This document shows, piece after piece, positions 54,653 through 60,786 of a stretch of 64,000 nt of DNA; the first letter of the stretch is position 1; each line of letters begins with the position of its first letter. The stretch is from Verrucomicrobiales bacterium. Lineage in GTDB: Bacteria > Verrucomicrobiota > Verrucomicrobiia > Limisphaerales > J093. Below the pieces are notes generated by a model, which saw nothing but the letters and a program-made list of their open reading frames with translations, was not told where the DNA came from and ran no database searches. The stretch covers positions 1 to 64,000 of the forward strand of contig JABTUJ010000035.1 of NCBI GenBank assembly GCA_015075445.1, in the 5' to 3' direction. Made by a program: the position numbers and the translations under genes.

Positions 54653-56056
54653 ATGAAACCGACCCCCATTCCTCCGAAGCGTGTTGGGGCAGGGCAAGCG
54701 CTGCGGTTGACCGGGTTGCTTGCCGCCGCCTGCCTCTCCGCCCACGCCGGCGATGCAACCCCCGACCGGCTGCCCGGACCTGCAGCACCTCCCCCGCTGA
54801 CCATCACTCATTGCGACCGCACCGGCGGATGCGTGACGCTCGATCTTACTACACCGGCACCCGCCGGTCGCCATCAACTCGAAGCAAGCACCGACCTCCG
54901 CCACTGGCAGCCGATCCCGATTGCCACGTTCGAGAAGCGGAACGGTGGAACCCTGCGCACGGTGCTCGCCGGCGTGGTGGAGAGCGCTTGTTTCTATCGC
55001 GTGACGCTGCTCGAAGCCACCGCCACCAACCCGCCCGTCTACGTGAACCTGCAGGTGGACGGCGAACTGGAAGACACCCAGGGGTTGCGCACGGTGATGT
55101 CCGAACTGAAGCGACGCCAGATCACCGCGACCCTGTTCGTCACGGCCGATTACGCCAACCGGAACGCGATGCTGGTCACCGAGCTGTTTCAGAGCGGCTT
55201 CGAGGTCGCCCTGCACGGCTATTACACCGGCGAGCAACTGACCTCGATGACCTACGACGAGCAGAAGAACCTGCTCTCGCGGGCCAAGCTCGCGCTCGAA
55301 GGCTGCCGGCCGTGCGGGACGTACAAGCCGATCCTCGGGTTCCGCCCGCAGTACTTCAGCCAGAACGAAGACACCTTCCGGGTTCTGAAGGAGCTGGGCC
55401 TGACCTACAACAGCGGCTTCAAGGTCGGACAGTTGTCCCTCCCCGGCCACACCTGGGACGCCTGGCCGTACCAGGCCCCCGGGCACGACTTCTACGTGCT
55501 CCCCATCAGCACGGTCCCCTCCGACTGCACGCGGGTTTACCTCTGCGATCTCGCCTGCGGCCAGGTGGAGAAATGGACGCCTGCCCAATGGCGCGACGGA
55601 TTGCTCCAGGCGCTGGCAGAAGCGCTCGAGACCCGGCAGCCGCTCGTCGTCTTGCTCCATGGCTATTATGCCGGCGACGAGGCCAAGTACGGTTACTGGC
55701 AGCCCGTGCTCGACTTCCTGGACGCCGCCCAGGGCCAGGTCACCTTCGTCAAGTCCCAAGACCTGGTGGACCTGGCCAAGCCCTCGCCCGGAGGTTCTCT
55801 CCCCCCCCGTAGGCGCCGACGTGGGGAGGCGTTCAGGCGGACACCGCCACCTCGCCTCCTCACGTCGGCCTACGGTCGGGCGCGGTGCATTTTGCCGCTG
55901 CGGCCCGGACGCTCCCGAGGCATTCTGCAACGCTCGTCCCCCCTGCCGGGCGCCCGCCCACACGGCTGCAGGATGGATTTGCCCCGATCCAGCCTGGTCG
56001 TGCACGGTTGGCATCAGAATCGCAGCCAGCCGGGGTATGCTGGTCGCGATCCCTAA
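54653..56056 (+). CDS. Secreted polysaccharide-deacetylase-like protein with a repeat-derived tail
   Basis: A 467-residue exported protein. A signal region (RLTGLLAAACLSAHAG) is followed by a small beta domain of the kind widespread in verrucomicrobial exoproteins (HQLEASTDLRHWQPI...CFYRVTLLE). Residues ~125-380 resemble a NodB/polysaccharide deacetylase barrel (VYVNLQVDGELEDTQGL, TATLFVTADYA, GFEVALHGYYTG, GFRPQYFSQNEDTFRVLKELG, VVLLHGYY). The usual DD and HxxxH metal motifs are only partly present, so activity is doubtful. The native protein should end near 55795; the rest is translated from the palindromic repeat at 55809-55873 and beyond, overlapping the next gene's start. Confidence 0.75.
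   Translation: MKPTPIPPKRVGAGQALRLTGLLAAACLSAHAGDATPDRLPGPAAPPPLTITHCDRTGGCVTLDLTTPAPAGRHQLEASTDLRHWQPIPIATFEKRNGGTLRTVLAGVVESACFYRVTLLEATATNPPVYVNLQVDGELEDTQGLRTVMSELKRRQITATLFVTADYANRNAMLVTELFQSGFEVALHGYYTGEQLTSMTYDEQKNLLSRAKLALEGCRPCGTYKPILGFRPQYFSQNEDTFRVLKELGLTYNSGFKVGQLSLPGHTWDAWPYQAPGHDFYVLPISTVPSDCTRVYLCDLACGQVEKWTPAQWRDGLLQALAEALETRQPLVVLLHGYYAGDEAKYGYWQPVLDFLDAAQGQVTFVKSQDLVDLAKPSPGGSLPPRRRRRGEAFRRTPPPRLLTSAYGRARCILPLRPGRSRGILQRSSPLPGARPHGCRMDLPRSSLVVHGWHQNRSQPGYAGRDP
55809..55873. repeat. Palindromic repeat, GCCGACGTGAGGAGGCG family, inside a coding frame
   Basis: The left arm 55809-55831 (GTAGGCGCCGACGTGGGGAG plus GCG) and inverted right arm 55853-55873 (CGCCTCCTCACGTCGGCCTA) flank a 21-bp loop. 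It adds residues to the deacetylase-like protein. Confidence 0.9.
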
Positions 56057-56537
56057 CTTCCAGGGCCGTGTTTCGCCGGTGTTCGACGTCGCTTCGCGCC
56101 TGACCGTGGTGCGGGTCGAGCGCCGGTCGGAACGGGACCGACGCGAGATTGTGCTGCTCGAGGCCCGGCCCGAGGCCATCGCGCGTTCGCTGGCCGAGTT
56201 GGGGATTGCTGTGCTGATCTGCGGCGCCATTTCGCAGACGCTCGAGCGTTTGCTGCGACACGAGGGGGTGAGGGTCGTCGGCCAGGTCTGCGGGGAAGTC
56301 GACGCCGTGCTGCAGGCTTATCTTCGTGGGACACTGGATGACCCTGAGTTCGGGCTGCCGGGGTGCTTCCGTCGGCCCCGCGACCAAGTCTCCCAAGGGG
56401 CCGTTGGGCAAACGGCCGGAGCGCCGGGAAACACTGCCTCAGGAACCAGCCGAGCGGGATCGCGGAACCGCCTTCGCCTGCGCCCTCTGGCAACGCGCGG
56501 AGGAGGTAACCGTCCACCACGCCCCAAGGCCCGGTGA
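56037..56537 (+). CDS. NifX/NifB-type (dinitrogenase iron-molybdenum cofactor) domain protein
   Basis: A 166-residue cytoplasmic protein. Residues 1-105 follow the Nitro_FeMo-Co fold: MLVAIPNFQGRVSPVFDVASRLTVVRVE, GIAVLICGAISQTLERLLRHEGVRVVGQVCGEVDAVLQAYLRG. Proteins of this fold bind Fe-S or metal clusters and carry them in nitrogenase maturation; many homologues work outside nitrogen fixation. No nif gene is nearby. The C-terminal ~55 residues are low-complexity. The ATG at 56037 lies within the extended deacetylase frame. It is the first gene of a close-packed cluster with an ABC transporter and NosL, which suggests a metal-handling role. Confidence 0.78.
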   Translation: MLVAIPNFQGRVSPVFDVASRLTVVRVERRSERDRREIVLLEARPEAIARSLAELGIAVLICGAISQTLERLLRHEGVRVVGQVCGEVDAVLQAYLRGTLDDPEFGLPGCFRRPRDQVSQGAVGQTAGAPGNTASGTSRAGSRNRLRLRPLATRGGGNRPPRPKAR

Positions 56538-56562
56538 ACCGCCGGCCGTGGCGTCCCTACCC

Positions 56563-56925
56563 ATGCACCGCGCCTTGCCTTCCCTCGACAGATATTCTCT
56601 GGGGGTCATGGTCCTGGCCGCCGTCCTGGTCGTGGGTGCGGTGGCGATCACCGTCGATGCGGCGCGACAGCGGCGCCGGCAGGGTCGGGTGCTGCCCGAA
56701 ATGCGCGCCGCCGTCCGCCTCTTGGGCACCGCCGACATGGCGTTGTCGAGCGCTTCCCGGTGGCTGCGTCACCCGTCGCTGAGCGAACCGGGCGCGGCCT
56801 TCGCCGATGCCCCGGCCATCCTCGACGCCGACCCGGCCGGGGCGCTGATCGCGCCGCCGCCGGTGTTGTGGTCGGGAATCAACGCAGGACCGGTGGAGAT
56901 CCGGAAGGGGCGCGGCACACCATGA
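56563..56925 (+). CDS. Small single-pass membrane protein of the ABC/NosL cluster
   Basis: A 120-residue protein with one N-terminal membrane segment (LGVMVLAAVLVVGAVAITV), then RQRRRQGRVLPEMRAAVRLLGTADMALSSASRWLRHP and a Pro/Ala-rich tail. No family is recognised. Its stop overlaps the permease start (ATGA, 56922-56925), which strongly supports it being translated as part of the operon. The basic residues after the helix predict an N-out or signal-anchor topology that the sequence alone does not settle. Confidence 0.65.
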   Translation: MHRALPSLDRYSLGVMVLAAVLVVGAVAITVDAARQRRRQGRVLPEMRAAVRLLGTADMALSSASRWLRHPSLSEPGAAFADAPAILDADPAGALIAPPPVLWSGINAGPVEIRKGRGTP

Positions 56926-58106
56926 AGCGGCACCTGGCATTGATTCGCTTTGCGCTGGGCAGCAGCCGACGGCGGGCGGGGCGCACGGTCTCGCTTGGGG
57001 TGGCGCTGGCGCTGGTCACGTTCGGGTTCGCCGCCGTGCTCTTCCTCACCGAGGCGTTGCGGCGCGAGTTTCACCTCGGCGCCCAGGGCTTGCCGGACCT
57101 GACTGTGCAACGGTTGGTCGCCGGTCGCCCGGCGTTGATCGGGGAGGATTGGACGCAGGCCATCGCCGGCATCGCGGGCGTCACCCGGGTGGAACCTCGC
57201 GTCTGGGGCTACTACTTCGTCCCGGCCCTGGCGGGGAACTTCACCGTCGTGGGCGTCGAGGCCGACTCCCTGCCGGACGCCGCGGAGCGGGAGTTGGTGG
57301 TGGGCGAAGGCCGTTTCTTCGCGGCCGATGCCCCCGATGAAGTGGTCATGGGCGAAGCCCTGGCGGATTACCTCGGGCTCAGCGTGGGCGACGCCATTGA
57401 ACTGCCGGTCGGGCGCGGGCGGAAGCGGCTCGAAATCGTTGGTCTGTTCCGCGCCAGCGTCGCGCTGTGGACCGCCGACGTCCTCCTCATGAGCACCGCA
57501 GGCGCCCGCGCGTTCCTGCAGGTTCCGACCGGATCGGCGACCGATGTGGCCGTGCGTCTGAGCACGCCGGACGAAGCCACGGTGGCGGCCAGGAAGATTG
57601 CCGACCTTCTGCCTGATGCCCGCATCCTGGACCGCCAGCTCATGAACCGCGGGTACGACCTGACCTTCGACACGCGGGGCGGGATTCTGGGCGCCATGCT
57701 GCTGCCCGCGCTCGTGGCGTTCCTGGTGCTGGCCTGGGACCGGCTCACCGGCGTGGGCCCGGGCGAACGCCGGGAGATCGGCGCCCTCAAAGCCATGGGG
57801 TGGCAGACCAGCGATGTGCTCCTCGCCCGACTCTGGGAGAACCTGGTTCTGAGCTTTCAAGGGGCCTTGGTCGGCTTGATCGCGGCGTATCTGTATGTGT
57901 TCCACGCCCACGCACCGGGGTTGGCTGACGTGCTGCTCGGCTGGAGTTCGCTCTACCCGGCGCTGCAACTTGCCCCGGCCGTGACCGGTGGCCAGCTCCT
58001 GGCCCTCACCTGCCTGGTGGTCCTCCCGTTTGTCGCCTTAAGCCTCGTGCCGGCCTGGCGCGCAGCCACCCTCGATCCGCTCGGCTTGCTCCGGGGAGCC
58101 ACATGA
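56922..58106 (+). CDS. ABC transporter permease (FtsX/MacB type)
   Basis: A 394-residue permease. An N-terminal helix (VSLGVALALVTFGFAAVLFLTEAL) is followed by a ~230-residue periplasmic MacB_PCD-like domain (LADYLGLSVGDAIELPV, VVGVEADSLP) and three C-terminal helices (GAMLLPALVAFLVLAWDRL, ENLVLSFQGALVGLIAAYLY, LLALTCLVVLPFVALSLVPAWRAATLDPLGLLRG). The REIGALKAMGWQTSDVLLARLWE coupling region is typical of FtsX-fold permeases that drive work in the envelope. Its stop overlaps the ATPase start (58103-58106). The cargo is unknown. Confidence 0.92.
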   Translation: MKRHLALIRFALGSSRRRAGRTVSLGVALALVTFGFAAVLFLTEALRREFHLGAQGLPDLTVQRLVAGRPALIGEDWTQAIAGIAGVTRVEPRVWGYYFVPALAGNFTVVGVEADSLPDAAERELVVGEGRFFAADAPDEVVMGEALADYLGLSVGDAIELPVGRGRKRLEIVGLFRASVALWTADVLLMSTAGARAFLQVPTGSATDVAVRLSTPDEATVAARKIADLLPDARILDRQLMNRGYDLTFDTRGGILGAMLLPALVAFLVLAWDRLTGVGPGERREIGALKAMGWQTSDVLLARLWENLVLSFQGALVGLIAAYLYVFHAHAPGLADVLLGWSSLYPALQLAPAVTGGQLLALTCLVVLPFVALSLVPAWRAATLDPLGLLRGAT

Positions 58107-58792
58107 ACGACGCGCCCCCCATCGCTATCCGCACCGTCGGCCTGACCAAGCGCTACGCCAACGGCCGGCAGGAGAAGATCGCCTTGCGCGACGTCACCCT
58201 GTCCGTGCCGACCGCCGGGTTCTGGGTGGTGAGCGGCCCCAGCGGATCCGGCAAGACCACCTTGCTCGGCCTGCTGGCGGGCATGATCGCCCCGACCGCG
58301 GGCGAAGTGCACCTGAACGGCCGGCTGATCACCCACCTGCGCGACCACCACCGGGCGCTTGTCCGGCGCAACGAAGTGGGCATGGTCTTCCAGGAGTTCG
58401 CCTTGGTCACGGGCCTGACGGTGGCGGAGAACCTTTTTCTGCCGTTGGTCCCGACCGGGGGCCCGCCGGCGGCCACACGGGCGAAGGCAGCGGCCCTGCT
58501 CGAACGGTTCGGGGTGACGGCCCTGGCGCAGACGCGCGTCGAGCGCCTTTCGGCCGGCGAGCGCCAGCGGGTCGGGATCATCCGCGCCTTGTTGGGCGAG
58601 CCACCGATCCTTCTGTTGGACGAACCCACGGCGTCGCTGGACTCGACCAACGTTGAGCGTCTGGTGGACTTGTTGGCGAGCCTGCGCGCGGAAGGCCGCA
58701 CGCTGCTGGCGACCACCCACGACCAGCGGCTCGTGAACGATCCGCGGGTCGATGGCCGACTCCGGTTGGTGGACGGCGCCCTCGCAGGCTGA
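58103..58792 (+). CDS. ABC transporter ATP-binding protein (LolD/MacB type)
   Basis: A 229-residue ATPase partner of the preceding permease. Walker A GPSGSGKTTLLGLL, Q-loop VGMVFQEFALVTGLTV, signature LSAGERQRVGIIRALL (A in place of G after LS), Walker B ILLLDEPTASLD and H-loop LLATTHDQRLV are all present, so it should hydrolyse ATP. The gene overlaps the permease and precedes a membrane protein by 9 bp. Sequence resembles mechanotransmission-type ABC systems rather than importers; no binding protein is encoded here. Confidence 0.95.
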   Translation: MNDAPPIAIRTVGLTKRYANGRQEKIALRDVTLSVPTAGFWVVSGPSGSGKTTLLGLLAGMIAPTAGEVHLNGRLITHLRDHHRALVRRNEVGMVFQEFALVTGLTVAENLFLPLVPTGGPPAATRAKAAALLERFGVTALAQTRVERLSAGERQRVGIIRALLGEPPILLLDEPTASLDSTNVERLVDLLASLRAEGRTLLATTHDQRLVNDPRVDGRLRLVDGALAG

Positions 58793-58801
58793 AGCCGCGC
58801 C

Positions 58802-59836
58802 ATGTTGACCAACCTCCTCAACGTCTGGCTGCTGGCCCGCGTGATGCAATCCGGCGTGGCGGCCACCCTGGTGGTGTTGGGCGCGGCTTTCGGCCTGCGC
58901 ATCGCCTGGCGTTGGCGGTCCGGGCAGTCGGATGAAGCCCAACTGGCGCTGGAACGACAGGCTGAACTCGTCGCGGCTGTGATGCAGGTGGCGCTGGGCG
59001 TCGGGATCGTGGGACTGGCGCTGTCGGCGTTTGTCGCCGACCACCTGGTCGGAGGGATCCGGGGGGCGATGTGCGCATTCGGCGTGCTGGGCTCGACGGG
59101 CAGCGGGTTTCCGGGGCTGGCCGTGGGGGCGTTCGCCGCAGTGGCTTGCGGCTGGTGGGTGGTGCTTCACCGGTTCGATCTCCGGCTCGAAACCCCGGTG
59201 TTGACCCGCCGCAAGATGCTGGCCCTGCTCGCCGTGGCGCCCTGGTCGGTCGCCGACTTCGTGCTGGCCGTCCGGTTCGCGTACGAACTGGACTTCAGCG
59301 TCATTGCGTCCTGTTGCTCGGTCTGGCTGGACGACACCGCCCTCCAGAGCCAGGCGGCACGGCTCGTGGTGTCGCCGAACCTGGCGGGAGGACTGGGCCT
59401 GGCCACGGCGGTCCTGGCCGGCGCTTCGGCCCTGTGGGTCTGGCGGCGGCCGGGACGCGTGACCGCCTTGACGTGTGCCGCCTGTTCCGTCGTGGCGACC
59501 CTGGCCGCCCTGCCCGCGGTGTTGGGCGTGGTGGCGCCGTACACGCTGGCCACGCCAGGCCACCTGTGCCCGTTCTGCCTGCTGCACGCGCAAGGCGGCT
59601 GGCTGGGTTGGCCGCTGTTCGGGGCGCTGTTTGCCGCGGCCGTGACAGGGGTCGGCGTGGGCCTCGTGGAACTGCATCGGCCGGCCGACCAGCCCGCCGG
59701 CCGCGTCCGGGAATTCCAGCGCGTCCTGGCGCGCTGGTCCGCCCTGGCCTGGCTCGCCGTCCTGGTGTCCGGCGTGTTTCCAGTGGCGCGGTATCTGTTC
59801 CGTTCGGGGGGCATTTCGGTCTTCGGTGAGGTGTGA
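58802..59836 (+). CDS. Polytopic membrane protein with CPFC motif, NosL-associated
   Basis: A 344-residue protein with about eight hydrophobic segments (VAATLVVLGAAFGLRIAW, LALLAVAPWSVADFVLAV, FGALFAAAVTGVGVGLVEL, LAWLAVLVSGVFPVARYLF). It carries a cysteine pair in GHLCPFCLLHAQGGW, positioned between helices, and further cysteines (VIASCCSVWL, LTCAACSVV). The CxxC could be a thiol-redox or metal site. I do not recognise a named family. It sits between the ABC genes and NosL with 9-bp and 1-bp spacing, so it is part of the same process. Confidence 0.75.
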   Translation: MLTNLLNVWLLARVMQSGVAATLVVLGAAFGLRIAWRWRSGQSDEAQLALERQAELVAAVMQVALGVGIVGLALSAFVADHLVGGIRGAMCAFGVLGSTGSGFPGLAVGAFAAVACGWWVVLHRFDLRLETPVLTRRKMLALLAVAPWSVADFVLAVRFAYELDFSVIASCCSVWLDDTALQSQAARLVVSPNLAGGLGLATAVLAGASALWVWRRPGRVTALTCAACSVVATLAALPAVLGVVAPYTLATPGHLCPFCLLHAQGGWLGWPLFGALFAAAVTGVGVGLVELHRPADQPAGRVREFQRVLARWSALAWLAVLVSGVFPVARYLFRSGGISVFGEV

Positions 59837-59837
59837 C

Positions 59838-60302
59838 ATGAACGCGAAAACCAAGTCGGTATGGTGGTTGGGAATGCTGATCACGTGGCTGGGCACCGGC
59901 TGTGGCCCTTCCGGGGCGCGCTGCCTCAAGTGCGGCATGCGGGTGGATGACCACCCCCGCTGGGTGGCGGGCGCCACCACCGCGTCCGGGAACGAGGAAC
60001 GATTCTGCTGCCCCCGCTGCCTCTTTGCCTGGCATCTCAGCCCGCGCGGCGCGGGCAGCCACGACCTCTGGATCACCGAGTACTATTCCCAGCAGCGCAG
60101 ACCGGTAGGTGAAGTGCATTTCGTGATGGGCTCCGACGTCGTGGGCCCCATGGGCAAGGCGCTGGTGCCCATCGCCGGGCGCGAGGCCGCCGACCAGTTC
60201 CGCCAGGACCATCACGGCTCCCGCCTCCTGACCGCCACGGAGCTCACGCCGGAACTGCTGCGCGAAATCGCCGGGAAACCGCCGGAACCCTCCCCGCCTT
60301 GA
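59838..60302 (+). CDS. NosL-like lipoprotein (putative Cu(I)-binding)
   Basis: A 154-residue lipoprotein with signal peptide SVWWLGMLITWLGTGC. The NosL metal motif CxxCxMxxxD is present as CLKCGMRVDD, and a second pair follows in RFCCPRCLFAW. The C-terminal half has the NosL plan (VHFVMGSDVVGPMGKALVPIAGREAADQFRQDH, then LTPELLREI). NosL binds copper(I) for nitrous oxide reductase maturation; no nosZ is present in the window, so a different copper or thiol target is possible. It starts 1 bp after the CPFC membrane protein. Confidence 0.88.
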   Translation: MNAKTKSVWWLGMLITWLGTGCGPSGARCLKCGMRVDDHPRWVAGATTASGNEERFCCPRCLFAWHLSPRGAGSHDLWITEYYSQQRRPVGEVHFVMGSDVVGPMGKALVPIAGREAADQFRQDHHGSRLLTATELTPELLREIAGKPPEPSPP

Positions 60303-60414
60303 ATCCATGTGGCACGGACGCCTCCGGTGCGAGGAGGTGACAAGCGCGTTACAATCCGGCAAACCGGTGCGCGGACCATTGCCCGCGGGGACCGAAGCTG
60401 GCAGAACGCGTCCC

Positions 60415-60786
60415 ATGGTTCGCCCCACGACCACACTCAACATGTTTCGGAACACCCGGGATGCCGTCACCTTCGGTCCCGGCCAAGTGATCTTTGCCGA
60501 GGGCGAGCCTGGGGATTCGATGTACGTGGTGGTCGAGGGTGAGGTCGACATCTCCATCGGTTCCCGGCTCGTCCGGACGTTGGGACCGGGCGGCGTCTTT
60601 GGGGAGATGGCCCTGGTCGAACACGGACCGCGCAGTGCGACGGCCACTGCCCGGGGGGTGGTGCGCCTGGTGGTCATCGATGAACGGCGGTTCCACTTCC
60701 TGGTCCAGCAGACGCCGTTCTTCGCGCTGCAGATCATGCGGATCATGTCCGAGCGGCTGCGGGCCGAGGCGGGCGCGCGACCCTGA
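60415..60786 (+). CDS. Cyclic-nucleotide-binding-domain protein
   Basis: A 123-residue protein that is essentially one cNMP-binding (CRP-like) domain: VTFGPGQVIFAEGEPGDSMYVVVEGEVDISIGSRLVRTLGPGGVFGEMALVEHGPRSATATA, with the phosphate-binding-cassette glycine/glutamate (GEMAL) and RSATATA. No DNA-binding domain follows, so it is a stand-alone sensor or regulator subunit. The start is the ATG at 60415. It trails the NosL cluster by 112 bp and may or may not belong to it. Confidence 0.9.
   Translation: MVRPTTTLNMFRNTRDAVTFGPGQVIFAEGEPGDSMYVVVEGEVDISIGSRLVRTLGPGGVFGEMALVEHGPRSATATARGVVRLVVIDERRFHFLVQQTPFFALQIMRIMSERLRAEAGARP

Follow-up and report, generated by a model that had tools for sequence, protein, structure and literature searches.

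NosL is established as the chaperone that brings Cu(I) to the CuZ site in NosZ (PMC6530538, PMC7558416), and copper has been described as passing from NosL to NosD, together with NosFY (PMC13068155). The latter paper describes a set in Parageobacillus thermoglucosidasius that comprises NosL and NosDFY without NosZ, for which a copper relay to another recipient was inferred. In Rhodobacter, CopA and CutF are dedicated maturation factors for a periplasmic multicopper oxidase (PMC8456105). Here we analyse a tight gene cluster in a 64,000-nucleotide stretch from a Verrucomicrobiales bacterium (positions 1 to 64,000 of contig JABTUJ010000035.1, assembly GCA_015075445.1; hereafter the window), five genes of which form one copy of a conserved module: a NosL-family probable lipoprotein, a Lol/MacB-type ATP-binding cassette (ABC) permease, its ATPase, a small protein with one transmembrane (TM) segment and a membrane protein with a CPFC motif (the CPFC protein). 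To our knowledge, neither the route by which copper reaches large surface multicopper oxidases nor the reason for NosL in organisms without nosZ is settled. The module represents a defined five-gene candidate for both questions, present in cultured genera and equipped with invariant residues.

The module shares with NosDFYL the association of a NosL lipoprotein with an ABC transporter, and in two genomes (G458 and G638) both systems lie side by side. However, its permease is LolC/MacB-like and not of the ABC-2 type, Pfam detected neither a NosD beta-helix protein nor an ABC-2 NosY among the six window genes, the module has the CPFC and small TM proteins in addition, and nosZ was not found in most genomes that carry it. 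The P. thermoglucosidasius set also relies on NosD, NosF and NosY parts, whereas the module uses a Lol/MacB-type permease and the CPFC protein; CopA and CutF fulfil the same type of task, multicopper oxidase metallation, with different proteins. The transporter itself is closest to LolCDE and LolDF, with which it shares the permease fold and sequence, a LolD-like ATPase and a probable lipoprotein (NosL) encoded beside it. When the permease profile was compared with the PDB, the best matches were LolC (E 1.4e-9) and LolF (1.8e-7), followed by LolE and YtrF. The predicted permease model (predicted local distance difference test, pLDDT, 90.8) matched MacB, LolCE, HrtB and YtrF in Foldseek at E 1e-9 to 1e-16, with LolE (3.2e-16) and MacB (9.2e-15) among the top matches, and VIA-align aligned it with LolE and with a MacB-like transporter of Streptococcus at Z 23-24, the alignments spanning about 360-370 residues. 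Four TM segments (from the predicted helices), MacB-like periplasmic and FtsX C-terminal domains over the Pfam cut-off, and a separate ATPase are the features of the type VII (MacB/LolCE/FtsX) transporters. The scores were nevertheless far below the NCBIfam cut-offs for LolCE (44.2 bits for the permease, cut-off 362.45) and LolD (156.5 bits for the ATPase, cut-off 307.75), and we therefore consider the transporter to be Lol-like and not a member of Lol; with 171 bits, the ATPase was also below the cut-off for FtsE. Moreover, the module differs from the Lol systems in its single permease gene and its copper context, and it is known here from sequence and predicted structure.

We then asked how widely the cluster is conserved. 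The original prediction had described six tightly spaced genes, and all six frames were recovered on the + strand at 56037-60302 (Table 1). Neighbouring frames either share an ATGA or stand 1-25 bases apart: 25 bases between the NifX-like and small TM genes, ATGA overlaps at 56922-56925 (small TM/permease) and 58103-58106 (permease/ATPase), 9 bases between the ATPase and CPFC genes, and 1 base between the CPFC and NosL genes. A contig scan in which a pattern of the GAMC or HxC[PI]FC type was mandatory yielded 384 confirmed loci; the best 80, together with the window region (L009) and the loci L006 and L007, make up a set of 83 loci, in which start sites are approximate and frames were picked mechanically as the longest or most homologous. 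By tblastn, the CPFC gene was found in 83 of these loci, the ATPase in 81, the permease in 76, the small TM gene in 72 and NosL in 68; all five are adjacent in the window. The genes mostly follow one another as NosL-NosL-small TM-permease-ATPase-CPFC, and the median distances between these neighbours range from -4 to 27 bases. Identities between CPFC proteins followed those between permeases closely (Mantel r = 0.94 over 74 loci), and the corresponding values were 0.81 for the ATPase, 0.70 for the small TM protein, and 0.71 and 0.84 for the two NosL classes. Judged by gene order and co-inheritance in these sequences, the five genes at 56563-60302 represent a conserved module that recurs in 82 other loci. 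The cluster is thus more than a chance arrangement, because its last five genes occur together in unrelated genomes. The NifX-like gene, on the other hand, had been counted as a core part of the cluster, a place it loses because it is present in only two of the 83 loci, the window and its closest relative (L010).

According to the taxa given in the sequence records, the 82 non-window loci belong to about ten phyla, archaea included. The labels of the scan loci comprise Desulfobacterota-type bacteria, Methylococcales, Nitrospirae, Geobacter, Anaeromyxobacter, Holophagaceae, Methylomirabilis, Marinimicrobia, Epsilonproteobacteria, Verrucomicrobiota and Hydrothermarchaeota, and the cultured genera among the labelled carriers are Methylobacter, Methylocaldum, Desulfoferrobacter, Desulforhabdus and Imhoffiella. 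Within the window's own phylum, four of 387 genomes matched the CPFC query: the window's, two genuine relatives (L006 and L007), in which a CusA-type pump is followed by permease, ATPase, CPFC and NosL genes, and a chance match in G112 to an Lgt-like frame. A CPFC profile detected the family in 46 of the 297 genomes of the phylum of L071, two of which (G429 and G631) were dropped since the matched frame reads as an unrelated protein, leaving 44 module genomes; it also matched in 16 of 151 genomes of the order of L040 and in 32 of 198 genomes of the phylum of L029. No module relative was found in IMG/VR viral contigs or plasmids, and no paper describing the module was found in the full text of PubMed Central, a collection that most subscription journals lie outside.

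Table 1. Coordinates of the window cluster and of NosL-barrel fusions in other loci (aa, amino acids)
Feature	Coordinates	Strand	Matches and remarks
NifX/NafY-type domain protein, 166 aa	56037..56537	+	PF02579 E 1.2e-8; non-core, lineage-specific neighbour
Small one-TM protein, 120 aa	56563..56925	+	No Pfam family; tblastn to L006 E 5.9e-9
Type VII (MacB/LolC-like) ABC permease with periplasmic domain	56922..58106	+	MacB_PCD 6.8e-12, FtsX 4.6e-6
ABC ATPase, FtsE/LolD-like	58103..58792	+	ABC_tran 9.6e-33
CPFC membrane protein	58802..59836	+	No Pfam match (E limit 0.1)
NosL-family probable lipoprotein, CLKCGM + FCCPRC	59838..60302	+	PF05573 E 2.2e-20
NosL-barrel fusion	L007:8536-9855
NosL-barrel fusion	L040:11051-12454
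NosL-barrel fusion	L116:6000-7355

The neighbours of the module are copper genes. Linkage was evaluated in the 44 module genomes mentioned above, with expectations calculated for uniform placement and without regard to contig ends. Five genomes outside the phylum, most second matches in one frame and the two chance genomes were left off the lists of positions, and one NosL row (G434) had no coordinate and was assigned one by script. Under these conditions, NosL was located within 8 kb of the module in 32 of the 39 genomes that have one, for 0.43 expected. A PF07731 multicopper oxidase is encoded in 27 genomes and lies no more than 20 kb from the module in 13 of these (0.85 expected). The window's phylum provides a further case, G162, in which a PF07731 match lies on the module contig about 16 kb off. 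As raw counts, for which there is no background rate, CusA, CusB, CopA, multicopper oxidase or YtkA-family genes were present in 35 of the 82 non-window loci, and the methanotroph loci unite CopA, DsbD, thioredoxin and NosL-barrel genes. A scan for the HCHxxxH motif gave eight loci, but L035 was set aside because its frame is a chance one; the oxidases of the other seven carry the motif HCHILSHEExDMMRP and are large (1201-1594 aa, plus one frame of 518 aa that is cut by the contig end). According to these results, copper genes adjoin the module across phyla, and the module is linked to multicopper oxidases and CusA pumps. The reading we consider most likely is that the module handles copper in the envelope, and that copper is loaded onto periplasmic or surface enzymes via NosL lipoproteins in a process driven by the Lol/MacB-type ABC transporter. 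The same neighbours bear on an iron uptake system of the FetMP/P19 kind, which has similar parts (an FtsX-type permease, an ATPase and a thiol-bearing membrane protein); it is very improbable here, since the module is surrounded by copper genes and none of the six genes has a Pfam match to the FTR1-permease or P19 families.

Copper detoxification must also be considered. In such a scheme, excess periplasmic Cu(I) would be captured and fed to CusAB/CopA efflux and to multicopper oxidases of the cuprous-oxidase type, with no enzyme metallation. Multicopper oxidases can indeed act as cuprous oxidases, CusA, CusB and CopA were found in 28, 19 and 7 of the 82 non-window loci, respectively, and 8 of the 40 module genomes having a CusA (TIGR00914) have it at a distance of at most 20 kb, for 0.89 expected. 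However, the single CusA homologue of the window genome (G000) lies on a different contig (C17), the large size of the oxidases linked in seven loci sets them apart from CueO, and the module of G458 and G638 extends a nosZDFY operon, a situation of enzyme maturation. Detoxification as the role of the module therefore appears unlikely.

The relation to nosZ was explored with PF18764 (nos_propeller), a search for which G389 served as the positive control and which gave no positive among 14 control genomes. No match was found in G000, which is 87% complete, whereas the genome that holds the closest relative (L010) was positive in the same search. Overall, 62 of the 67 distinct module genomes, G238 and G162 among them, had no match, and the five positives (G389, G458, G469, G504 and G638) were found in a group of 46. 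Among 46 other module genomes, two (G458 and G638) have a nos operon that passes directly into the module; its order is nosZ-nosD-nosF-NosL-nosY-thioredoxin, where nosY encodes an ABC-2 permease (Pfam was run on G458 only); because of this adjacency, the module is not strictly separate from NosZ. In G389, nosZ is located on contig C266 and the sole NosL on C7. The original prediction had named as decisive against it a displaced accessory set belonging to a nosZ operon elsewhere in the genome. We give this alternative almost no credence: a NosL is present, and the sibling genome G389 has a nosZ locus with adjoining NosD-like and ATPase frames, but the search that was positive there found none in G000, so that only the unassembled 13% remains for it, most module genomes are in the same situation, and the permease is not of the NosY type. 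Taken with the copper-gene neighbours across phyla, the negative search in G000 supports the earlier idea of copper delivery without a local nosZ.

The window NosL is the only one found in the 8.2 Mb assembly. It scored 73.8 bits against PF05573 (cut-off 24), matched the PDB NosL 7osf at E 1.8e-4 and has the C-x-x-C-G-M motif in the form CLKCGM. Its N-terminus is hydrophobic and, by eye, is followed by WLGTG-C, in which position -3 departs from the usual lipobox consensus. Two classes were distinguished among 94 NosL members of 110-280 aa, the classical class with CPVCGM (58/94) and a class with a second cysteine pair (36/94); the window protein belongs to the latter, since its CLKCGM is followed by FCCPRC, a second cysteine cluster that is missing from the classical class. 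One 348-aa frame (L083:5746-6792) contains two NosL domains, one per cysteine class. In L007, L019, L022, L040, L055, L081 and L116, NosL is followed within one protein by a Phenol_MetA_deg (outer-membrane-barrel) domain, which in L081 is slightly below the cut-off.

The CPFC family matched no described family or solved structure convincingly in the searches made: the best E values were 0.0014 in Pfam and 0.001 in NCBIfam, for one member each, and no convincing sequence match was obtained in the PDB. The module gives this family a context. Among 72 aligned members, Q47, L56, G88-A89-M90-C91, G94, D126, C171, C172 and C256 are invariant and C259 is kept in 70, cysteine conservation being in part selected by the GAMC and HCPFC scan patterns. 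As a check, we considered 16 loci found by profile alone, picked by us, mostly from the weaker matches, among those of the 44 module genomes; M90, C91, C171, C172, C256 and C259 were kept in all 16 of these distant relatives. AlphaFold predicted eight long helices (pLDDT 93, predicted template modelling score 0.90). The loops bearing the cysteines are poor in K+R (0.32, 1.28 over 29 residues, and 0.61), whereas the alternate loops are rich in them (1.61, 3.03, 2.14 and 1.92). Given the positive-inside rule, this distribution points to a periplasmic location of the cysteines, and thus the five of them and M90 are probably on the periplasmic face. An internal duplication was discarded, as hhalign of the two halves gave a probability of 0.4%.

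These cysteines could also be read in terms of thiol-disulfide chemistry, the CPFC protein being a DsbB/VKOR-like oxidoreductase, the ABC transporter moving a thiol compound and NosL being a side partner. The C-x-x-C motif and the five invariant cysteines, C259 counted among them, fit this idea, as do the thioredoxin- or DsbD-type genes present in 17 of the 82 non-window loci (again a raw count without a background rate). On the other hand, the DsbB and VKOR families of Pfam matched none of the 72 CPFC proteins at E 0.1, NCBIfam DsbB matched one of them weakly (E 0.0094), and the permease is Lol/MacB-like and not CydDC-like. As for the fold, Foldseek against the PDB returned 455 matches at E <= 10 and none at E <= 0.001, which leaves VKOR, DsbB or another known fold unsupported, and the best VIA-align row (Z 14.2 over 138 residues) was a designed bundle, several rows exceeding 9, a level that is common for helical bundles. 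We regard the thiol-disulfide reading as quite improbable.

Returning to copper loading, we can propose how the parts would cooperate. NosL would hold Cu(I) in the periplasm via its cysteines, and the CPFC protein may offer a membrane-embedded periplasmic Cu(I) or thiol site for loading NosL or for holding its cysteines in the reduced state. The Lol/MacB-type permease would transmit ATP hydrolysis to the periplasm, moving or releasing either the lipoprotein NosL or the copper it carries towards the recipient, and the small TM protein could serve as an adaptor. The recipients are probably lineage-dependent, giant multicopper oxidases in Geobacter-related bacteria and NosZ in a few. One could imagine, more speculatively, a separate copper-metallation machine in bacteria and archaea, in which the Lol/MacB-type transporter mobilises NosL lipoproteins, some of them fused to a barrel, and the eight-helix CPFC family relays Cu(I) via a periplasmic cluster of Met-Cys, Cys-Cys and His-x-Cys-x-x-Cys for the building of giant surface multicopper oxidases and NosZ; this version is possible, yet we find it rather doubtful.

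Several observations weigh against the copper-loading reading. The linkage expectations rest on random placement, PF07731 found no match in 17 of the 44 module genomes, and CusA is not near the module in 32 of the 40 module genomes that have it. In addition, the alignment shows the small TM protein of the window clade to be devoid of the Cys and of two of the His that are conserved in the wider family, three of the 16 distant CPFC homologues (L105, L109 and L111) are without an adjacent permease or ATPase, and most of the source genomes are metagenome-assembled. Finally, neither a PF07731 oxidase nor nosZ was found in G000, and any copper recipient proposed for the window's organism is for this reason conjectural. 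One candidate is cytochrome c oxidase with its CuA site; G000 encodes one COX2 with an intact CuA motif (CSQLCGNGH).

Other features of these loci deserve mention. NosL lies nearby in two of the three loci in which the CPFC gene lacks an adjacent permease or ATPase, and a stand-alone CPFC branch is possible. In L098 (G693:C57:28000-46000), about 25 kb of one contig hold a CusA, two matches to multicopper oxidases and two CPFC genes accompanied by permeases. Immediately after the CPFC gene of G458 lies an FGE-sulfatase (formylglycine-generating-enzyme-like) gene (L116:10705-11745); the formylglycine-generating-enzyme type is itself copper-dependent. The small TM protein of the window is a divergent member of a family with the motif DLCLFTEARYTRHP..PFQDHP..EHFPSG. 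Directly after the window NosL, positions 60307-60786 encode a stand-alone cyclic-nucleotide-binding domain (PF00027), with no DNA-binding domain matched in Pfam. In L010, where the first NifX-like gene is split over two frames, the region downstream of the module (L010:11081-13781) encodes, by eye, another NifX-like protein, whose tail is rich in His, then a thioredoxin-like protein and a sigma-54-type regulator.

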